DNA of 37,863 nucleotides, taken from the NCBI GenBank assembly GCA_002789015.1, contig PFSJ01000004.1, forward strand, positions 1 through 37,863, in the 5' to 3' direction. The first letter of the stretch is position 1. Every line of letters begins with the position of its first letter. The stretch comes from a candidate division WWE3 bacterium CG_4_9_14_0_2_um_filter_35_11. Its GTDB lineage: Bacteria; Patescibacteriota; WWE3; 2-01-FULL-39-13. A model generated the notes under the pieces. The model worked only from the letters and a program-made list of their open reading frames with translations, was not told the origin of the DNA and did not search any database. A program made the position numbers and the translations under genes. Of this stretch, positions 770 to 28,985 are shown piece after piece.

Positions 770-1163
770 TAAAATTATTATATACCAATATATAAATTAG
801 AAAAACAAGAAAGTAATGAGTTTTTATTTTTAAAAAACTTAAGGGGATAAAGAAAAATAGCTTTTTAGTTGGCGAAATCAGGTGACCAGCCAAAATACAA
901 CTTTTCCACCACGTCGAAACAGGTCACCACAACAAAAACTACTACGAAGACTATATAGACGTTAATAGGTATCAACTGATAAAACTTATTAATAACACTA
1001 AAGTTTCTATTTTGAAAAGATGACCACAGGTTACTTAAAAAACCACTGAACATTAAAATCAGTATATAACAATATTTCGTCAAAAAATACTTACAAGAAG
1101 GTTTAATTTAAGTGGACAAAAGATCAATATTAAGATTAGTACTAAGGTAGTTTATACCGTTTG

Positions 1164-2384
1164 CTAACTACCGCTAACACTGCCTGTCAAATCCAACTTC
1201 TTATCAACAAGACTTCCAACTATGTTTCCATGTTCATCATATTGAATCGATATTAGTTTATGTTCTATCCTCCCATCCTGTAACCTTACAGTAATTTCAA
1301 AACTATAAGTGGATTTTGCAACTACAGACAATTCTTCTGGATTTCCATTTAAATATCCTAATTTTAAAAGCGCTAATATATACTCGGCCTGTTCTCGATC
1401 GCACCCAGCTATCCTCATTAAACTAGCTCCAAATTCTGGCAAATTAAAATTTCCTGAATATATCGGGAAATCATTTTGTTCATCCTGAACTACAAGCGCA
1501 GATTTGGTTTTGTCCCAATTAAGAAGTAAAAAATCGGTACTCGAAGCATTAACAAAATTTATAGTTGCATCTTCTGGCATCAGTGATATTCCAATCGTTT
1601 CCAAAACATCATCTTGTCCCTCGTAGTGCGTTACACCATGTGTCACAGCAATGATTACTGGTTTTCCATATTGGTCAAAATAAAATAATGGACCCCCAGA
1701 ATATCCCCTGTCACCAGTTACTGAACTTTCCCGATTTCCAACTTGCTTAAAATACATTTTCGAATTAAGGCCATCCATCTCATAACGATCTAACAACATT
1801 TCACGAATTTCCCGAATTACACTTTGACCTTGCTGTTGTGCCGAGACAGGAAAACCAACCTGATAGATTGTTACCGCATTTTTAATTAGATAATCAAGCA
1901 ATTCCACATCTACAGGGGCGTAAAGCATTTCCGAATCATCGGTGCCTACAGACGGAACAAGTAATAGGGCTGAATCAAATTGGCTTTTCGGACCAACTCG
2001 ACGATCTGCAGCTAAATAAGATTGTCTTAATAAATTCCTATTCATTGCTACGGTGGTCCCTTGTATCGTTGCCAAACTATCAGCGGAAATCCCATCGAAA
2101 CAATGTGCAGCAGATTGATGAACATCATATTCAAGCCCATCTAATAAAATTTTCCCTGTAGTAAATGCAGCGCATCTATTTTCTATTCCACCATTCCGTG
2201 TAACCACAATGCTAGACACGGTTTTAGCAACTTCAAGTAGTTGCTCTTTAACTTCTTGGGAAACATCTCCAACTATCTGGTCTTCTGATTGTCGATTAGT
2301 AACCAGGCCAAAACCCTCGAGAATAGGAGCAATTGGAACACCTGGAATATTTATATTTTCTGGAGGCAAATATTCTAGACTCAT
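1164..2384 (-). CDS. Trypsin-like (chymotrypsin fold) serine protease family protein
   Basis: Motifs SAAHCF (catalytic His), FDSALLLVP (Asp) and GDRGYSGGPLF (Ser) in correct order. Confidence 0.75.
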   Translation of the reverse strand: MSLEYLPPENINIPGVPIAPILEGFGLVTNRQSEDQIVGDVSQEVKEQLLEVAKTVSSIVVTRNGGIENRCAAFTTGKILLDGLEYDVHQSAAHCFDGISADSLATIQGTTVAMNRNLLRQSYLAADRRVGPKSQFDSALLLVPSVGTDDSEMLYAPVDVELLDYLIKNAVTIYQVGFPVSAQQQGQSVIREIREMLLDRYEMDGLNSKMYFKQVGNRESSVTGDRGYSGGPLFYFDQYGKPVIIAVTHGVTHYEGQDDVLETIGISLMPEDATINFVNASSTDFLLLNWDKTKSALVVQDEQNDFPIYSGNFNLPEFGASLMRIAGCDREQAEYILALLKLGYLNGNPEELSVVAKSTYSFEITVRLQDGRIEHKLISIQYDEHGNIVGSLVDKKLDLTGSVSGS

Positions 2385-2489
2385 AATGAAATTATTAAAC
2401 CATTTACATCAATCATCTTTGCTAGATTATACTATGGGGCTACAACTTACGTCAATTGAGTGTACAGGCCAGCATTTTAAGCTAAAACC

Positions 2490-2556
2490 CTATCTCGCCA
2501 CAACAATTACTTCGCCAAGTTATTTTACAGTTAGCTTCGGCTGTGTATTTGTTCAT
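2490..2556 (-). repeat. Cupredoxin-gene 3' tail copy R1 (longest copy, one-base frameshift)
   Basis: Reverse complement reads aaatacacagccgaagctaactgtaaaataactTggcgaagtaattgttgtggcgagatag = KYTAEANCKIT(frameshift)GEVIVVAR*, vs KYAAGENSGITGEVIVVAR* at 6161. Confidence 0.8.
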
Positions 2557-2561
2557 CGACC

Positions 2562-3758
2562 TCAATCTATCATTCCGCCCCAAATAAAGTCGTCGAATGT
2601 ACTTGGCATGTTTTTACCGATAAGTCTGTACTTAGAGGTTTTTATTTTTTCAGCATTTCGTGAAAGTTTTATAAGATCTGTATCAACCGGGGTCTCTTTA
2701 ATTTCAAAAGCATAATCATCATTTAAAATAAAACCTATTTCTGAATTATCATCTGCAAAATACGTCAACTTTCTTCCAAATACATTTTGATTTGCATGTA
2801 AAAACAGTTGGTGACAAAGGGTATTTTCAAACTTTGCCCCAACGGAAAGATCATAATTGATATTTGCTATACCTGTATCAACAAAATACAACTTCGGAGA
2901 CATCCTAAACCTTACATCAGCTGATTTGCTAAATGGCTGAATTAACCTTATAAGATAAGTTTGTTCCATAAATGCTAGATACGAATCGATAGTCTGCCTA
3001 GTTATACCCAATATTTTTGACAGCTGGCTTACATTTATCTTGTTTCCTATTCGTCCTGCCAATAACTCAACTAATTTTGCAAACTCTTTTACAGATCTAA
3101 ATTCTGATAAAATTTGTACATCTAAATTGATATAAGAGCTAAAAATCATCTCTAACTGCTTCTTTTTATCTTGCAAATCGCTTATTAAAACAACCTTGGG
3201 AAGCCCACCAAATTCAGTATACTCTTGGTACAATTGCCCTAATTTTTGGTAAGCAAATTTAGAAAATTTAGCACTGTAGCTAAATTTAGGCAATATATAG
3301 TCCTCTTGCCTAAAACGCAAAAACTCACTAAAAGATAACGGATAAAGCTCATAGATTATTTTTCTTCCAGCCATTGATTCGCTAAATAGATTTTTTAAGT
3401 AATACGAGCTTGACCCAGTAATCAAAAATTTAATGTTGTAATGATCGTGTAAATACTTAACAATACTTGGTAGTTCTGGCAAAAGCTGAATTTCATCAAC
3501 CGCTATATACATCTTTTGTGATATATCTAACCCAAGGTTTTGAAATTCCTGAATAAGGGAATCATAGTCTGAAACTAAAAACAATTTGCGATTGCTAATA
3601 TTTTCAAGATCAAAATAATACTTATTTTCTGATTGAATTTGAGATAATATCCATTTTATAGTTGTAGTTTTACCAACCTGCCTTGCACCTGTTAAAACTA
3701 AAACCTCGTCTTTCTCAATTTCTTTTCTTAATAATTCCCAAATATCCCTAGTGAACAT
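2562..3758 (-). CDS. AAA+ ATPase, DUF4143-type (archaeal-type ATPase family)
   Basis: Walker A TGARQVGKTT, Walker B-like YIAVDEIQLLP, ITGSSSYYLKNLFSESMAGR and C-terminal nuclease-like/DUF4143 organisation. Start taken at internal Met (MFTRDIWELL) rather than 3809. Confidence 0.85.
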   Translation of the reverse strand: MFTRDIWELLRKEIEKDEVLVLTGARQVGKTTTIKWILSQIQSENKYYFDLENISNRKLFLVSDYDSLIQEFQNLGLDISQKMYIAVDEIQLLPELPSIVKYLHDHYNIKFLITGSSSYYLKNLFSESMAGRKIIYELYPLSFSEFLRFRQEDYILPKFSYSAKFSKFAYQKLGQLYQEYTEFGGLPKVVLISDLQDKKKQLEMIFSSYINLDVQILSEFRSVKEFAKLVELLAGRIGNKINVSQLSKILGITRQTIDSYLAFMEQTYLIRLIQPFSKSADVRFRMSPKLYFVDTGIANINYDLSVGAKFENTLCHQLFLHANQNVFGRKLTYFADDNSEIGFILNDDYAFEIKETPVDTDLIKLSRNAEKIKTSKYRLIGKNMPSTFDDFIWGGMID

Positions 3759-3829
3759 ATAACTTCCATTGTACAATAACGGCAGATTTTTGCAAAGTAC
3801 AGTTAGCAACTATAGCCAATAACTGCATA

Positions 3830-3872
3830 CTACCTCGCCACGACAATCACTTCTCCTGTTATTTCATCCTTT
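3830..3872 (-). repeat. Cupredoxin-gene 3' tail copy R2
   Basis: Reverse complement reads aaggatgaaataacaggagaagtgattgtcgtggcgaggtag = KDEITGEVIVVAR*. Confidence 0.85.
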
Positions 3873-3873
3873 G

Positions 3874-3905
3874 CTCAATCTATCATTCCTCCTCAAATAA
3901 AGTCG
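3874..3905 (-). pseudogene. Remnant 3' end of a second DUF4143 AAA+ gene
   Basis: ctcaatctatcattcctcctcaaataaagtcg matches the 3' terminus of the AAA+ gene at 2561-2592 at 30 of 32 positions; reads DFI*GGMID* vs DFIWGGMID*. Confidence 0.7.
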
Positions 3906-4029
3906 GCATGCGAGCATTCCCGACTTGCCACCAAAACACGATTAGTGATAATACCACTTGGCGGTCCACTGTAAATCGTAAATATGGACAACAATAGATT
4001 TATTGACCTTAATCCTTGGATTATGTAGG

Positions 4030-4073
4030 TCACCTCACCACAATAATTATTTCTCGGATAATTTTATCGTTTG
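4030..4073 (-). repeat. Cupredoxin-gene 3' tail copy R3 (diverged)
   Basis: Reverse complement reads aacgataaaattatccgagaaataattattgtggtgaggtga = NDKIIREIIIVVR*. Confidence 0.7.
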
Positions 4074-4176
4074 CCTCAATATTATTATCATGATTTATTA
4101 TAAAAGCGTCTTAAGTATTAGGTTCATAGGACAATATTGATGCATTTTCGTCCTGCAGCCAAGACCTAACGTTGCT

Positions 4177-4440
4177 TTAGTAAATGTCTTCGTGAGTGCC
4201 AATGTCTAGCAGATTCATTAAATCACCTTTAAGTTTAAAGATAACCCTAATGTTCATATCTATTGATATACTCCATACATTATCAAACCTGCCAGTAATT
4301 TTATGTAACCTAAGTGATGGATGATTCAAGTCGTTAATTGCCAACCACAATTTACCTTTAACCTTACTATTGAGTTGCGGATTATTTTTAATAATCTTTT
4401 TATACCTTCTTATATAGTAAGTTGAAGCTTGTATCTTCAT
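4177..4440 (-). CDS. RelE/ParE-superfamily toxin
   Basis: 87 aa, SLRLHKITGRFDNVWSISIDMNIRVIFKLKGDLMNLLDIGTHEDIY is typical of RelE/YafQ-like mRNA interferases; 4 nt overlap with upstream antitoxin ORF. Confidence 0.85.
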   Translation of the reverse strand: MKIQASTYYIRRYKKIIKNNPQLNSKVKGKLWLAINDLNHPSLRLHKITGRFDNVWSISIDMNIRVIFKLKGDLMNLLDIGTHEDIY

Positions 4441-4715
4441 ACATACTTATCCAAATCGTCTAAACTCTTAAGCTCAAAGGATCTACCAGCATTGTATTCT
4501 TCCATCGCCTCGGCAACTCTTTTTTCGAGCTTTGCGGAAGCCTTAAAGGTTGGAACATCAGACAAAATAGATTGTTCTACAGCCTTTGAAATAAGGAATT
4601 TCACATATCTAGAAAGATCATAACCAAAAACATCAGCTTTGGTTTGCAAAATAGACGCTTCTGGTTTAGTTAACGTTAATTGTATTTTAGTCATAGTTAG
4701 ATTGTAGTTAGACAT
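4437..4715 (-). CDS. Antitoxin of the RelE-type pair (RelB/DinJ or RHH-like)
   Basis: Small ORF directly upstream of and overlapping the toxin; N-terminal KIQLTLTKPEASILQTKADVFGYDLSRYVKFLISKAV resembles RHH antitoxins. Confidence 0.75.
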   Translation of the reverse strand: MSNYNLTMTKIQLTLTKPEASILQTKADVFGYDLSRYVKFLISKAVEQSILSDVPTFKASAKLEKRVAEAMEEYNAGRSFELKSLDDLDKYV

Positions 4716-4739
4716 AACGGCCTTGTCAATAAAACCGTC

Positions 4740-4782
4740 TTATCTCGCCACGACAATTACTTCGCCAATAATTTGACTGTTT
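4740..4782 (-). repeat. Cupredoxin-gene 3' tail copy R4
   Basis: Reverse complement reads aacagtcaaattattggcgaagtaattgtcgtggcgagataag = NSQIIGEVIVVAR*; 35 of 43 nt match 6161-6203. Confidence 0.85.
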
Positions 4783-4784
4783 GA

Positions 4785-5504
4785 TCAAAGGTTATTTCGA
4801 AGCTCATTTCCCAAGTTGTTTTTAAAGTCTCTAATTATCTGCCAGTGGCTTTTTGGCAGAAATTGCTTTAATTCTTTTTCAAAATCAATGTTTGTTTTCT
4901 CTAACACGTCCAGTATCTCAACTAGAATGCTCTTTGCTTTAACAGGCAACAGATTTTTACGTAATACAAAGTAGATGTCAAAAAAATCTCTTGGCTTTTG
5001 CCTGTCTAATAGTGCTTGAACTTTTTCCCAAATCAGCTGTTCTGTAGATAAATTCACAATAGTATATGGAATCAAAAAATCACTTGCGATTGTAGTCACG
5101 TCGCCTTTCAAACGTTTTTCACGCTCTGAAACATTGAATTCAATTAAAATTAGTTCTTGATTTAACAAAAATTGCAGATGTGCAAGATACCCACCTGTAG
5201 TTTTCTTAGACTCAATTACCTCAACTTTAATTCCTTCTCGTTGAATTTCTTGTAAAGAATCTAGCAAAATGCTTTCCAAATCGTTTAAATTGTTAAGTGA
5301 AGTACTAAAATCCAAGTCTTCAGAAAACCTTGGACTTCCGAAAATTAGTCTTAATGCTGTTCCTCCTTTGAAAAAAAGCCTGCTTGTTTGAGGTTGTTGA
5401 TAAAAATAAGACAAGAAAACGTGTTGAATATACTCTCTACGCACATTTAATTCGGTCGTTTGTAACTTGCTAGCCAATGTTTTAATGGCATCTAGTGACA
5501 TCAT
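4785..5504 (-). CDS. abiEii: AbiEii/AbiGii-family nucleotidyltransferase toxin
   Basis: FFKGGTALRLIFGSPRFSEDLDFS is the diagnostic nucleotidyltransferase motif (GGTAL...R.S.DLDF); paired with AbiEi-like ORF. Confidence 0.9.
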   Translation of the reverse strand: MMSLDAIKTLASKLQTTELNVRREYIQHVFLSYFYQQPQTSRLFFKGGTALRLIFGSPRFSEDLDFSTSLNNLNDLESILLDSLQEIQREGIKVEVIESKKTTGGYLAHLQFLLNQELILIEFNVSEREKRLKGDVTTIASDFLIPYTIVNLSTEQLIWEKVQALLDRQKPRDFFDIYFVLRKNLLPVKAKSILVEILDVLEKTNIDFEKELKQFLPKSHWQIIRDFKNNLGNELRNNL

Positions 5505-6112
5505 AATATAGTTTTCAAAAGATCAGTAACATTCTTGCTAGATCGATTACCATAAAGACTAACATACTGAAAAACCTTGTCTTTATTGATCTTGTTAACA
5601 TTAATAATTAATCGATCATTTTTAGGTATCCTGTTTAACATTACAAAATAGAAATAATCTACCAAAGCTTTCTCGGATTCGGCAATCAGTATAGATTTAT
5701 CCTGATTTTTAATCAAAGCGTATCCTGTAAAAGCTTCTCTTTTGATTGAATGATAAAAAAAGACTTTATCGTGAACAGTAAAGGTTCTAGTTGGTTTTGT
5801 CGTTGCAGACGTAACTGTGTACGGCATTTCAGGAATTATTCCATAGTAAGCTAAGGCGTATTCGAATGAAATATAAGAAGGTTTATACAAAGCATTCGCA
5901 ATTTCTTCTTCACTAGGCAAATCAGTATTTAAAGTATAAAGCCCTTGCTTTAAACGCAGTAAAAAACCATCTTTAGCCTGTCTTTCAAGAAAATATTTCG
6001 TCTTGGAAGAAGAAATTTGAAATGTTCTCGAAAAAATATCTGGTGTAAATATATTTATATTCCTTTTTTTTAGTTCTTCTCGCACCTCAATCGGTTTCAT
6101 TAAAGTATACAT
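5501..6112 (-). CDS. abiEi: AbiEi-like antitoxin/transcriptional regulator
   Basis: N-terminal winged-helix-like region (KTKYFLERQAKDGFLLRLKQGLYTL), SFEYALAYYGIIPE; 4 nt overlap with AbiEii. Confidence 0.85.
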   Translation of the reverse strand: MYTLMKPIEVREELKKRNINIFTPDIFSRTFQISSSKTKYFLERQAKDGFLLRLKQGLYTLNTDLPSEEEIANALYKPSYISFEYALAYYGIIPEMPYTVTSATTKPTRTFTVHDKVFFYHSIKREAFTGYALIKNQDKSILIAESEKALVDYFYFVMLNRIPKNDRLIINVNKINKDKVFQYVSLYGNRSSKNVTDLLKTIL

Positions 6113-6130
6113 ATCTACACTTTAATGAAA
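6095..6130. promoter_or_regulatory. Perfect 12-bp inverted repeat over the abiEi start, candidate operator
   Basis: TTTCATTAAAGT-atacatatctac-ACTTTAATGAAA; overlaps the ATG of abiEi. Confidence 0.65.
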
Positions 6131-6160
6131 TGCGGATATCCTGTCAACATGACAACAATC

Positions 6161-6703
6161 TTACCTCGCCACGACTATTACTTCTCCAGTTATGCCACTG
6201 TTTTCGCCTGCCGCGTATTTGTACGTTCCTAGGTAGTCGAATTGTTGCGAGAATGCTTTTTCGTTTTCGATTGGCAATAAATTCCCCCATTCGTTTTCAC
6301 CTTTTATTGTTAAGTCGGCAACCGCTCGGTTTCTCCAGGTTACTAAATCACCTTGAAATATTGTTATGCTTTCTGGATCAAATTTTTTCCCATCGAAAAC
6401 AACAAAGTAATTTTCTGGATTTTGGCTTTTTGCAATTTCTTCAAATTTAGCCTTTGTTTCTGGATCATAAATATTTGGAGCGTTAACAATATTTGGAGAT
6501 TCTTGCTTTAATTCGTCATATGTTTTTTTAGTCGCACTTTCTAAAAATTCTTTTGTTGGAACATTTGGATCTACTTCAGCTTGATTAGTTTCTGAAGTAC
6601 CAGGGACAATATTTTTGCCTCTTATAATTCCAAAATAAACAACTACTCCCGCAATCAACAAAAATACACTAAATATCGTTACGGCTTTCATTTTGTCTTT
6701 CAT
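6161..6703 (-). CDS. Membrane-anchored cupredoxin-like protein (parent gene of the tail repeats)
   Basis: N-terminal TM segment; DGKKFDPESITIFQGDLVTWRN...FDYLGTYKYAAGENSGITGEVIVVAR has plastocyanin/cupredoxin-like strand motifs. Confidence 0.75.
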   Translation of the reverse strand: MKDKMKAVTIFSVFLLIAGVVVYFGIIRGKNIVPGTSETNQAEVDPNVPTKEFLESATKKTYDELKQESPNIVNAPNIYDPETKAKFEEIAKSQNPENYFVVFDGKKFDPESITIFQGDLVTWRNRAVADLTIKGENEWGNLLPIENEKAFSQQFDYLGTYKYAAGENSGITGEVIVVAR

Positions 6704-10747: not shown

Positions 10748-11206
10748 TTACCAGCAACCTGCATCAGGAAGCAATCTAGTAGCAGTCCCTGCTCCGAAAT
10801 CAAAACTACAACTATAGTTACAAGCTGTTGAATCTGTTTTTGGCACACCAGCAGTAGCTGACAAAGTTCCTGTTATTGTAACAACATTTCCGGAAATAGC
10901 AGAAGCGAAAGTTGAAGCAGCTGGAATACCAGTAGGATCAGCAGCGCCAATTAAAGCTAGTGTCGTTGCAAAAGTCGCACTTCCACAATTTCCGGCAGTT
11001 GCCGTAGTCGCCGCGCATGAGTTTAATGCTAAACAAAGCTTATTTGTATTAGCTGAAAGGACTGATTCAGCAGACTTTCTCTGTTGTTTGGCTGGGTTAA
11101 GTACTACCAAGACTACACCGGCTAAGATTCCGATGATAACGATAACTATAAGTAACTCGATAAGGGTAAACCCTTTTCTTCCGAAGCGGACAGGAAATGT
11201 ATTCAT
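10748..11206 (-). CDS. Type IV pilin, paralogue of 10211..10624
   Basis: GFTLIELLIVIVIIGILAGVVLVVLNPAKQQRKSAESVLSANTNKLCLALNSCAATT. Confidence 0.85.
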   Translation of the reverse strand: MNTFPVRFGRKGFTLIELLIVIVIIGILAGVVLVVLNPAKQQRKSAESVLSANTNKLCLALNSCAATTATAGNCGSATFATTLALIGAADPTGIPAASTFASAISGNVVTITGTLSATAGVPKTDSTACNYSCSFDFGAGTATRLLPDAGCW

Positions 11207-11238
11207 TCTTCGTACTTTTTATCGAGGAAGGCTATTTA

Positions 11239-11988
11239 TCATAACAATCCTAGATACAAATTAATTAAATTAAAACCAACTAAATAACTAATCGTAAACC
11301 CAAATATTAGAAAAGGCCCAAACGGTATAGTTTGCGTTATCCGCTTCCTTCCCCTTATAACGAGTATTACCCCAACAATTGCCCCTGTCAAGAAGGAGAT
11401 AAAAAGCATAACTAAAGATAATGTTGGACCTAAAAAAAGTGCCAATATTCCAGATAAATAAATGTCGCCTTCACCCATAGCTTTGCCCTTTGAACCCAAA
11501 TATAGGATGCCGAAAAATGCGGAGGTTATAAGGGCTGCCCTGACATGATCCCAAATCGGGAAGTACATAAGGGCAGCCCCAATCAGATACGTCCCAACCA
11601 ACAGATAAAGATATATATCCGGAATAACATAATACAAAAGATCCGTAAAGACGATCAGGATTAAAACCAGTAAAACTAAAGCAAAAAACAAAGCTTGCAA
11701 TAATGGATAGCTCGCAAAAATAAATCCTGCACAGATCGCTGTAAAAAATTCTATAACAATATGTATTGGCGGAATACTTTTTTTACAGTATCTACATTTT
11801 CCTTTTAGAAACAAAAATGAAAAAACCGGTATCAAATCCATCATCGAGAGTTCATGCTTACATGAAACACAATAAGACCTTCCCTTAACAAATTGCTCCC
11901 CTCGATAAACACGTTCAATTACGACATTCAAAAATGATCCAATAAAAAGAAAAAAAATAAAAGCAATTAAAAAGATAATTAAAACCAT
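11239..11988 (-). CDS. pilD: Prepilin peptidase
   Basis: GSFLNVVIERVYRG, CVSCKHELSMMDLIPVFSFLFLKGKCRYCKKSI (two CxxC), and GKAMGEGDIYLSGILALFLG (GxGD). Confidence 0.92.
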   Translation of the reverse strand: MVLIIFLIAFIFFLFIGSFLNVVIERVYRGEQFVKGRSYCVSCKHELSMMDLIPVFSFLFLKGKCRYCKKSIPPIHIVIEFFTAICAGFIFASYPLLQALFFALVLLVLILIVFTDLLYYVIPDIYLYLLVGTYLIGAALMYFPIWDHVRAALITSAFFGILYLGSKGKAMGEGDIYLSGILALFLGPTLSLVMLFISFLTGAIVGVILVIRGRKRITQTIPFGPFLIFGFTISYLVGFNLINLYLGLL

Positions 11989-12504
11989 TTATCGTCCCGC
12001 TTCCAACTTTTTAATTCGTTCTTCGTGGTCACAAATGAGATCCTGATTTCTTTTTGCGATACTAGTTGATGCGACTTGCTCTACCTCTATGTCCATTGTT
12101 CTAGAAACCATAGAATCCTTATATCCTAAAAGATCAATTCTCATATCTGCAAACATGGGCTCAAGACTTCTAATAATGTCTTCTTTGAAAAAGTCGAATT
12201 TAAAATCAATATGCTTTTCTAATCTATCAAATCTTTCTTCATGGCTATCTAATCTTTCGTTAATATTGACTAATTGTTTATCAATCTGGTTAAAACGCTC
12301 ATCAATTTGTGTAAAACGTATATCATGATCATCTAACCTTTCTTCGATTTTATCTAGTCGCGCCTCAATTTTATCTAACCTTACTTCAATTTTATCCAAA
12401 CGGGATTCTATTTTCTCAAATCGTACATCCATATAGCTAATTAAAACCGATAGCTTTTCATCTAGATATTCAGTCGTTAAAGGCGTCTGCTTTTGGCTTT
12501 TCAT
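11989..12504 (-). CDS. Coiled-coil protein with heptad repeats
   Basis: RFEKIESRLDKIEVRLDKIEARLDKIEERLDDHDIRFTQIDERFNQIDKQLVNINERLD heptads; internal Met start chosen. Confidence 0.6.
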   Translation of the reverse strand: MKSQKQTPLTTEYLDEKLSVLISYMDVRFEKIESRLDKIEVRLDKIEARLDKIEERLDDHDIRFTQIDERFNQIDKQLVNINERLDSHEERFDRLEKHIDFKFDFFKEDIIRSLEPMFADMRIDLLGYKDSMVSRTMDIEVEQVASTSIAKRNQDLICDHEERIKKLEAGR

Positions 12505-27895: not shown

Positions 27896-28921
27896 TTATC
27901 GTTCTCGTGAATGGAATTTTTCGTGAATCTCTTTTAGATGTCTATTTGTAACATGAGTATAAATTTGTGTTGTCGAAACATCTGAATGTCCAAGGAGTTC
28001 CTGAACAGAACGCAAATCAGCACCAGACATAAGTAAATCAGTTGCGAATGAATGCCTTAAAACATGTGGCGTAACATCAACTGATAATCCAGCCATCCTC
28101 GCATATTTTTTAACCATACGCTGAATCGAACGCGGAGTTAATCTTAGTGACTCACCATCACGATCATTGTCATCCATAAGTTTTCCACTGTATCTTACAA
28201 ACAAGGGTTTATATGGATCTTTTCTAGTGAAAATGTATTGTTTTAACCATTTTGACGCAGATTCAGACAAGTAAACAGTTCTTAACTTGCGACCTTTTCC
28301 TACTATCGCAAACTCTCTCTTATCAATAATTTGAGGCGAAAGATTATCGCGATTAAGCCCAGATAGCTCACTAATTCGCATGCCAGTACTAAAAAGTAGC
28401 TCGAGGATTGCACGATCTCTAACACCGCTTTTTTTACTTAAATCCTGAACTCGAACAAGATCCTCAATTTGGCTTTCATTTAAAAACTTTGGAACTCTTG
28501 GCTCCGTTTTTCCTAATGTAATTTTATCTGGAGCTAAAACAGAATTAAATCCGCGTTCAACAATTAAATATCTCAAGAAGGAACGTAATGCAGTTAAATA
28601 TCTATTTTGAGTATTAAAACGAATAGGTTTATTACTTTTTCCGCTAATTTTTCTATTAAGATATAACCTAAAATCACGAACTACATCTTGAGAGATTTCT
28701 TTATAACTTACGACGTCTGATTTTGAGGAACCATGAACCCAGGTTGCAAATTCTTTAAGATAAAAATGATACATCTTAATCGTTCCTTGAGATAAATTTT
28801 TTTCAACTTCACAATATTGCAAAAAATCGCTTACAAGACGTTCAACGGAAATGGAAGACTTTGAGGTTGTTTTTGATTCTGACAATGTGCTTATCGCACT
28901 GTCATTTAAGTTTGTCGGCAT
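27896..28921 (-). CDS. xerD: Xer-type tyrosine recombinase
   Basis: SAM-like N-domain; LLFSTGMRISELSGLNRDNL, HVLRHSFATDLLMSGADLRSVQELLGHSDVSTTQIYTHV (R-HxxR-H/Y). Start set at internal MPTN. XerC vs XerD not resolvable. Confidence 0.93.
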   Translation of the reverse strand: MPTNLNDSAISTLSESKTTSKSSISVERLVSDFLQYCEVEKNLSQGTIKMYHFYLKEFATWVHGSSKSDVVSYKEISQDVVRDFRLYLNRKISGKSNKPIRFNTQNRYLTALRSFLRYLIVERGFNSVLAPDKITLGKTEPRVPKFLNESQIEDLVRVQDLSKKSGVRDRAILELLFSTGMRISELSGLNRDNLSPQIIDKREFAIVGKGRKLRTVYLSESASKWLKQYIFTRKDPYKPLFVRYSGKLMDDNDRDGESLRLTPRSIQRMVKKYARMAGLSVDVTPHVLRHSFATDLLMSGADLRSVQELLGHSDVSTTQIYTHVTNRHLKEIHEKFHSRER

Positions 28922-28985
28922 TAACAATAAAGTACGACGTCTCACAACTAACGTCAATAGGATTTAGGGCCCCACTTTTAATATC

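Follow-up and report, generated by a model that had tools for sequence, protein, structure and literature searches.

The DNA analysed here (the window) is a stretch of 37,863 nucleotides (nt), contig PFSJ01000004.1 (C20) of a candidate division WWE3 bacterium of the Patescibacteria (host genome G000, 751 kb). A gene for a cupredoxin-like secreted protein in this window is followed by four displaced copies of its own 3' coding tail, and defence and toxin-antitoxin genes occupy intervals between the copies. The whole is best read as the probable outcome of insertion with long target duplication (ILTD) of single defence or toxin-antitoxin operons, occurring serially at favoured gene ends and followed by later recombination. 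The process is genome-wide and phylum-wide, and extends beyond the single locus described in an earlier note on this DNA. The target gene and its five tails are listed below.

6161..6703, minus strand: target gene, cupredoxin-like secreted protein of 180 aa (open reading frame, ORF; 82% identical orthologue in G001, stretch L015; weak Cupredoxin_1 match in homologues)
6159-6203, minus strand: R5, the current gene-bound tail, last ~45 nt of the cupredoxin-like gene
4740..4782, minus strand: R4, displaced tail (NSQIIGEVIVVAR, then stop), 82% over 45 nt to R5
4030..4073, minus strand: R3, displaced tail (NDKIIREIIIVVR, then stop), the most decayed copy, 28/45 matches against a shuffled maximum of 26
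3830..3872, minus strand: R2, displaced tail (KDEITGEVIVVAR, then stop), 91% over 32 nt to R5
2490..2556, minus strand: R1, displaced tail, likely native, with a one-base frameshift and a ~70 nt alignment to the G001 gene end

The 45-nt gene tail was compared without gaps with the four other places. The numbers of matching positions were 37, 35, 28 and 27 of 45, and the best of 200 region shuffles reached 26. Tail pairs in self-BLAST gave values mostly between 6e-8 and 1e-3. The five same-orientation tails reported in the earlier note are therefore present and stand above shuffles. The similarity that it described past the stop of R5 and R4 was confirmed for TAAGA and a common TTGACA, and nothing more is alike there. 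Promoter-like sites follow R5, R4 and R1, at a frequency in the region no higher than in shuffles. R1 extends ~27 nt farther upstream than R2-R4 and its best match is the gene of the sister species (KYTAEAN...); the longer upstream reach together with the best fit to the G001 gene end indicates that R1 is likely the old native tail. The gene-bound R5 diverges from G001 in the segment that R1 has retained. The cupredoxin assignment itself is weak (PF13473, E=2e-4 in the homologue of G004), and the Pfam search of the window's protein gave no match. A scan behind the protease-type gene found no sixth tail, and neither the Rfam search of the window nor the search of IMG/VR with the tail DNA pattern gave a match. 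Among 45 genomes of the class this pattern was found in G000 and G001 only.

The same gene was analysed in related genomes. G001 is a same-genus relative, a WWE3 metagenome-assembled genome with the site on CALRDH010000005.1. Its 82% identical orthologue carries one tail and no cargo, and a large Cys-rich gene of the same kind as that starting at window ~770 lies within ~100 nt downstream. This site is empty, and therefore the island of the window (AbiE, RelE-type pair, DUF4143 ATPase with a remnant, protease-type gene) was inserted. In G006, from another family of the same order, the cargo behind the homologous gene consists of a Phd/PIN pair, two DUF4143 ATPases and an MNT/HEPN pair, and the boundary sequences are related. 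G009 and G015, congeneric species of yet another family, both have an AbiE pair behind the cupredoxin gene (81% identical). G009 alone has an additional AbiE cassette between the gene and the common AbiE pair, the two cassettes being separated by a degenerate 34-nt fragment of the cupredoxin tail; the difference between the two genomes reads as one gene-proximal accretion step of the proposed process. The first method used revealed no tail copies downstream of other cupredoxin homologues, and the degenerate copy of G009 surfaced only through the comparison with G015. That accessory DNA was added repeatedly behind this gene, displacing old tails, as the earlier note had proposed, is supported by the empty site, the different cargo of G006 and the step between G009 and G015. 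Tandem full-length cupredoxin paralogues were looked for and not found, and the cargo varies at this locus.

The cargo of the window island is as follows.

5501..6112, minus strand: AbiEi antitoxin-like gene, cassette 1 (R5-R4), PADLOC AbiEi E=7e-39
4785..5504, minus strand: AbiEii nucleotidyltransferase gene, cassette 1, stop adjoining R4, PF08843 E=4.7e-29
4437..4715, minus strand: putative antitoxin, cassette 2 (R4-R3), ORF paired with the toxin, no Pfam match
4177..4440, minus strand: RelE/YafQ-type toxin, cassette 2, PF15738 E=2.7e-6, slightly below the curated cut-off
3874..3905, minus strand: 3' remnant of a second DUF4143 gene, R3-R2 interval, 94% over 32 nt to 2561-2592 of the intact gene
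2562..3809, minus strand: AAA_14 and DUF4143 ATPase, candidate defence family PDC-S01, cassette R2-R1, PF13173 4.4e-31, PF13635 5.5e-23, PADLOC PDC-S01 5e-58
1164..2384, minus strand: trypsin-like protease-type gene, 406 aa, distal cargo beyond R1, PF13365 weak (E=0.07), absent from the G001 site
1045..1075, minus strand: duplicate of the Cys-rich surface-protein gene's first nucleotides and upstream region, 87% over 31 nt to the original at 761-791, 284 nt away

The AbiE, RelE-type and DUF4143 modules named in the earlier note were recovered, and its AAA+ remnant region is refined to the last 32 nt of the second DUF4143 gene. The 31-nt repeat (761-791 and 1045-1075) could mark another small insertion of this kind, here at the 5' start of a gene. 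Two genes for protease-like or secreted proteins are cargo of tail-flanked insertions in G000, that at 1164-2384 of the window and another at 10205-11299 of L105 (G000:C23). Type IV pilus genes with PilB/PilT/PilC-type proteins adjoin the island. A XerC-like tyrosine recombinase gene lies outside it at 27896-28957, with counterparts in related genomes.

The hunt for further cassettes covered stretches around DUF4143 and AbiEii genes in G000-G006. It revealed many single-operon cassettes flanked by direct repeats, each repeat being private to its locus. The duplicated gene ends were those of khpA, truB, dedA, brnA and a N6-methylase gene, and the duplicated gene starts those of recF and a metallo-beta-lactamase-fold gene; a tRNA-Met gene is possibly also a target. 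The cleanest insertion case is khpA. In G002 an AbiEii cassette follows this gene, and beyond the cassette lies a displaced tail of 69 nt with 97% identity; in three genomes of the same family (G000, G001 and G003) the site is empty, with khpA directly facing the homologue of the distal neighbour of G002. The dedA array of G001 was encountered in a stretch chosen as control. Its cassettes are absent in G002 and G003, and this empty site is weaker because the distal neighbour is unmatched. Near-identical complete tRNA-Met(CAT) genes at 3079-3154 and 4050-4125 of L095 (G002:C16) flank a PIN-domain gene, which may reflect the duplication of an entire tRNA target or simply a tandem tRNA pair. In L101 (G002:C5) a RhuM gene (10956-12178) stands between the methylase and the next genes of a restriction-modification-type locus; the displaced methylase tail measures 89 nt and its differences are largely synonymous. 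Repeats near frr/rseP in L092 were left out, having no defence cargo, and repeats of pilin genes were excluded as paralogous leader sequences.

A phylum-wide sample of 64 AbiEii loci, drawn by AbiEii match only, was surveyed for bracketing repeats of at least 37 bits, with lengths up to 3,000 nt permitted. Direct repeats bracketed 18/64 loci and inverted repeats 3/64 (Fisher P=3e-4); at the stricter cut of 44 bits the counts were 13 and 1 among the 64 (Fisher P=5e-4). Random 550-nt intervals of control stretches were bracketed in 0.24% of cases. The bracketing repeats were 30-141 nt long with a single outlier of 410 nt; in L214 repeats reached ~165 nt. The outlier, the sole long repeat of the survey, is a 100% identical direct repeat around an AbiEii gene in L233 (G206:C21), the copies lying 4.4 kb apart; it may reflect a mobile element or an assembly effect. 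AbiEii loci on viral contigs were bracketed, weakly, in 1/14 cases, a sample too small to judge confinement to Patescibacteria, and no AbiEii relatives were found on plasmids.

The position of the repeats relative to genes was tested on 28 insertions. These had been selected because they carry repeats and so do not sample insertions at random. In 10/28 a repeat copy contained the stop codon of a neighbouring gene that points into the cassette, compared with 7% for shifted placements (P=2e-5). The 5' starts fell within repeat copies in 4/28 (P=0.09). No common motif or att core was found among the repeats of different loci (pairwise similarity 12.54 against 12.49 for shuffled sequences, 28 insertions). 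The operons of one AbiE family occur at unrelated target genes and in both orientations, with homology confined inside the repeats, which indicates that the cargo moves and the tail belongs to the target. The census of cassette cargo, with 25 families listed for 69 ORFs and six rarer ones outside the listing, included AbiE, DUF4143/AAA_14, PIN, HepT/NTase, RhuM, Fic and Schlafen-like genes and no integrase family. The sole transposase listed is one IS200 Y1 in L108 (G000:C11), where positions 1797-4261 hold a BrnT/BrnA-like pair, the transposase gene, an AbiEii gene and two direct-repeat sets, possibly nested insertions.

Arrays comparable to that of the window were observed elsewhere. L230, of a genome outside the WWE3 class (G122), contains five copies of a tail ending in SYAASGPGGFAPGEPELYGL and the stop, and its intervals carry a Schlafen-like gene, an AbiE pair, a BRO-N gene and an ATPase with a MNT/HEPN pair. 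The repeat lengths vary within this array (about 96, 65, 65 and 48). The idea that the copies of an array all share one left boundary is true for R2-R4 and was abandoned as a general rule after L230. L214 has three tail copies and two DUF4143-type cassettes. The tail pairs of L230 differ by 5-11 synonymous and 1-2 non-synonymous codon changes, where 74% non-synonymous would be expected at random, and L101 and L228 showed the same tendency. Because the differences are mostly synonymous, the displaced tails are not old copies decaying in place. They are recent snapshots of functional gene ends; either these ends had become different in separate lineages, or recombination had replaced the partner still bound to the gene.

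The proposed mechanism runs as follows. A single defence or toxin-antitoxin operon would enter beside a chromosomal gene, mostly at its 3' end, and the insertion would duplicate 23-165 nt of target sequence around the point of entry. The gene-bound copy would preserve the gene intact, and the other copy would stay beyond the cassette as the displaced tail. Favoured genes, such as the cupredoxin gene, would undergo repeated rounds with the newest cassette beside the gene, and tails would thereby accumulate. Later homologous recombination with the DNA of relatives, through natural transformation, would swap the gene-bound tail and exchange cassettes; this step is proposed because the displaced tails differ mostly at synonymous sites, and recombination of imported DNA has probably reshuffled the arrays. 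For this phylum, uptake of DNA by way of pili and competence proteins has been proposed (PMC12455944). The directly supported parts are the repeats, the empty sites, the single-operon cargo, the variable repeat length, the lack of a common motif and one gene-proximal accretion step. A rather unlikely alternative is a dedicated, so far unrecognised recombination machinery of Patescibacteria, which would add defence cassettes to gene ends by duplicating the local gene tail, with polar arrays growing outward from the gene as a gene-tail analogue of an integron or of CRISPR repeat duplication.

Several points weigh against ILTD as described. The enzymatic step is one that we infer, no insertion having been caught happening and no enzyme identified. 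About half of the 28 repeats are at no gene end passing the strict test, and most of the genomes are metagenome-assembled. The synonymous excess among the tails of the window is weak. The order of tail similarity is non-monotonic (R2 is nearest R5 and R4 nearest R1), so that simple serial duplication in a single lineage is insufficient. The left ends of R2, R3 and R4 coincide within ~4 nt, as a fixed recombination site would give.

This last point favours site-specific recombination in trans, by which a host tyrosine recombinase (the XerC-like one at 27896-28957 or a second one) or the lost integrase of an element would insert circular cassettes at tail-borne att sites. The tails, which remain coding like element-borne gene ends, and the presence of two tyrosine recombinases in G000 are also consistent with it. 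However, G001, G002 and G003 have both types as well, and 5' starts and perhaps a tRNA are also used as targets. The lack of a common motif, the repeat lengths varying even inside L230, the lack of a listed cassette integrase and, serine recombinases not having been searched genome-wide, the presence of only two tyrosine recombinases of types shared with relatives together make a single site-specific recombinase unlikely, and the single integrase that the earlier note had considered is disfavoured on the same grounds. Its other proposal, homology-facilitated recombination of incoming DNA, may apply and fits better than such an integrase.

Homologous recombination alone would need no target-duplicating insertion at present, since cassettes already joined to a donor tail would arrive by transformation and cross over at the tail. 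The synonymous divergence of tails (L230, L101, L228 and R2 of the window against G001) and the pilus genes in the window agree with this explanation, as do copies 1 and 3 of L230, which are alike for ~75 nt past the stop where copy 2 is not. Yet it leaves the first joining of a cassette to the tail of a new gene unexplained, and one AbiE family is found at many unrelated genes. The 97% identical khpA repeats fit a fresh duplication, and repeats seldom exceed 165 nt; as a full account it is distinctly improbable. Decay of whole-gene tandem duplicates to tails, chance or an assembly artefact is hardly credible, for although R3 and R1 are partly decayed, the G001 site has one gene and no paralogues, no gene-body remains lie between the tails, the copies outscore shuffles and brackets occur in single-contig genomes too (e.g. 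L246, L259).

Serial insertion behind genes looks like a little-noticed route of defence-gene gain in the reduced genomes of Patescibacteria. It bears on how these streamlined, mostly uncultured bacteria with few mobile elements acquire such genes. The tail arrays preserve single insertions in the manner of fossils; the insertion order, the exact limits of the cassettes and former alleles of the host gene can be read from them, and defence gain can therefore be ordered and counted from sequence alone. The displaced gene tail is also a simple signature for finding new defence cassettes. Long target duplication, an old and poorly explained phenomenon, is thereby extended to toxin-antitoxin-like modules and across a phylum. 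No account of such insertions in Patescibacteria was found in the literature searched, which did not cover most subscription journals.

Among known systems, elements with tyrosine integrases insert at gene 3' ends of the tRNA, guaA and prfC type. They resemble the present arrays in the restored gene end, the displaced old end, the direct repeats and the tandem accretion. They differ in that no integrase was seen in the cassettes here, the repeats are unrelated between genes and the repeat length is variable. Integron arrays also hold one-operon cassettes, often toxin-antitoxin, with short repeat separators and growth from one end; integrons are marked by attC sites, which are folded imperfect palindromes, and by IntI. 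The separators here are copies of the coding tail of the host gene, the cassette orientation varies between loci, and no IntI-like gene was seen in the cassettes among the families listed. The pdif modules on Acinetobacter plasmids, which are moved by XerC/XerD, are similar as small toxin-antitoxin modules with short flanking sites that move without their own recombinase, and differ in that the tails here have no common motif. The closest likeness is to ILTD, reportedly described for restriction-modification genes of Helicobacter pylori by Nobusato et al. in 2000 (Gene 259:99). In both cases defence or addiction-type genes lie between long, variable direct target duplications without a carrier element. 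Related genomes with one repeat copy and no insert, as expected under ILTD, exist here for the cupredoxin gene (G001, and G015 in the comparison with G009) and for khpA (G000, G001 and G003). Later papers describe ILTD as proposed from Helicobacter pylori genomes for restriction-modification genes (PMC3874152, PMC3031569, PMC1643837, PMC4978471), with long and variable duplications 'in the order of 100 bp' and no carrier element (PMC3874152, PMC3031569, PMC1643837). The present cassettes carry AbiE, DUF4143 ATPases, toxin-antitoxin, RhuM and other genes in place of restriction-modification, and therefore this is not ILTD in the strict original sense. The further differences are repeats of 30-165 nt, a bias to gene 3' ends, up to five tails stacked at one gene, and the occurrence in Patescibacteria.

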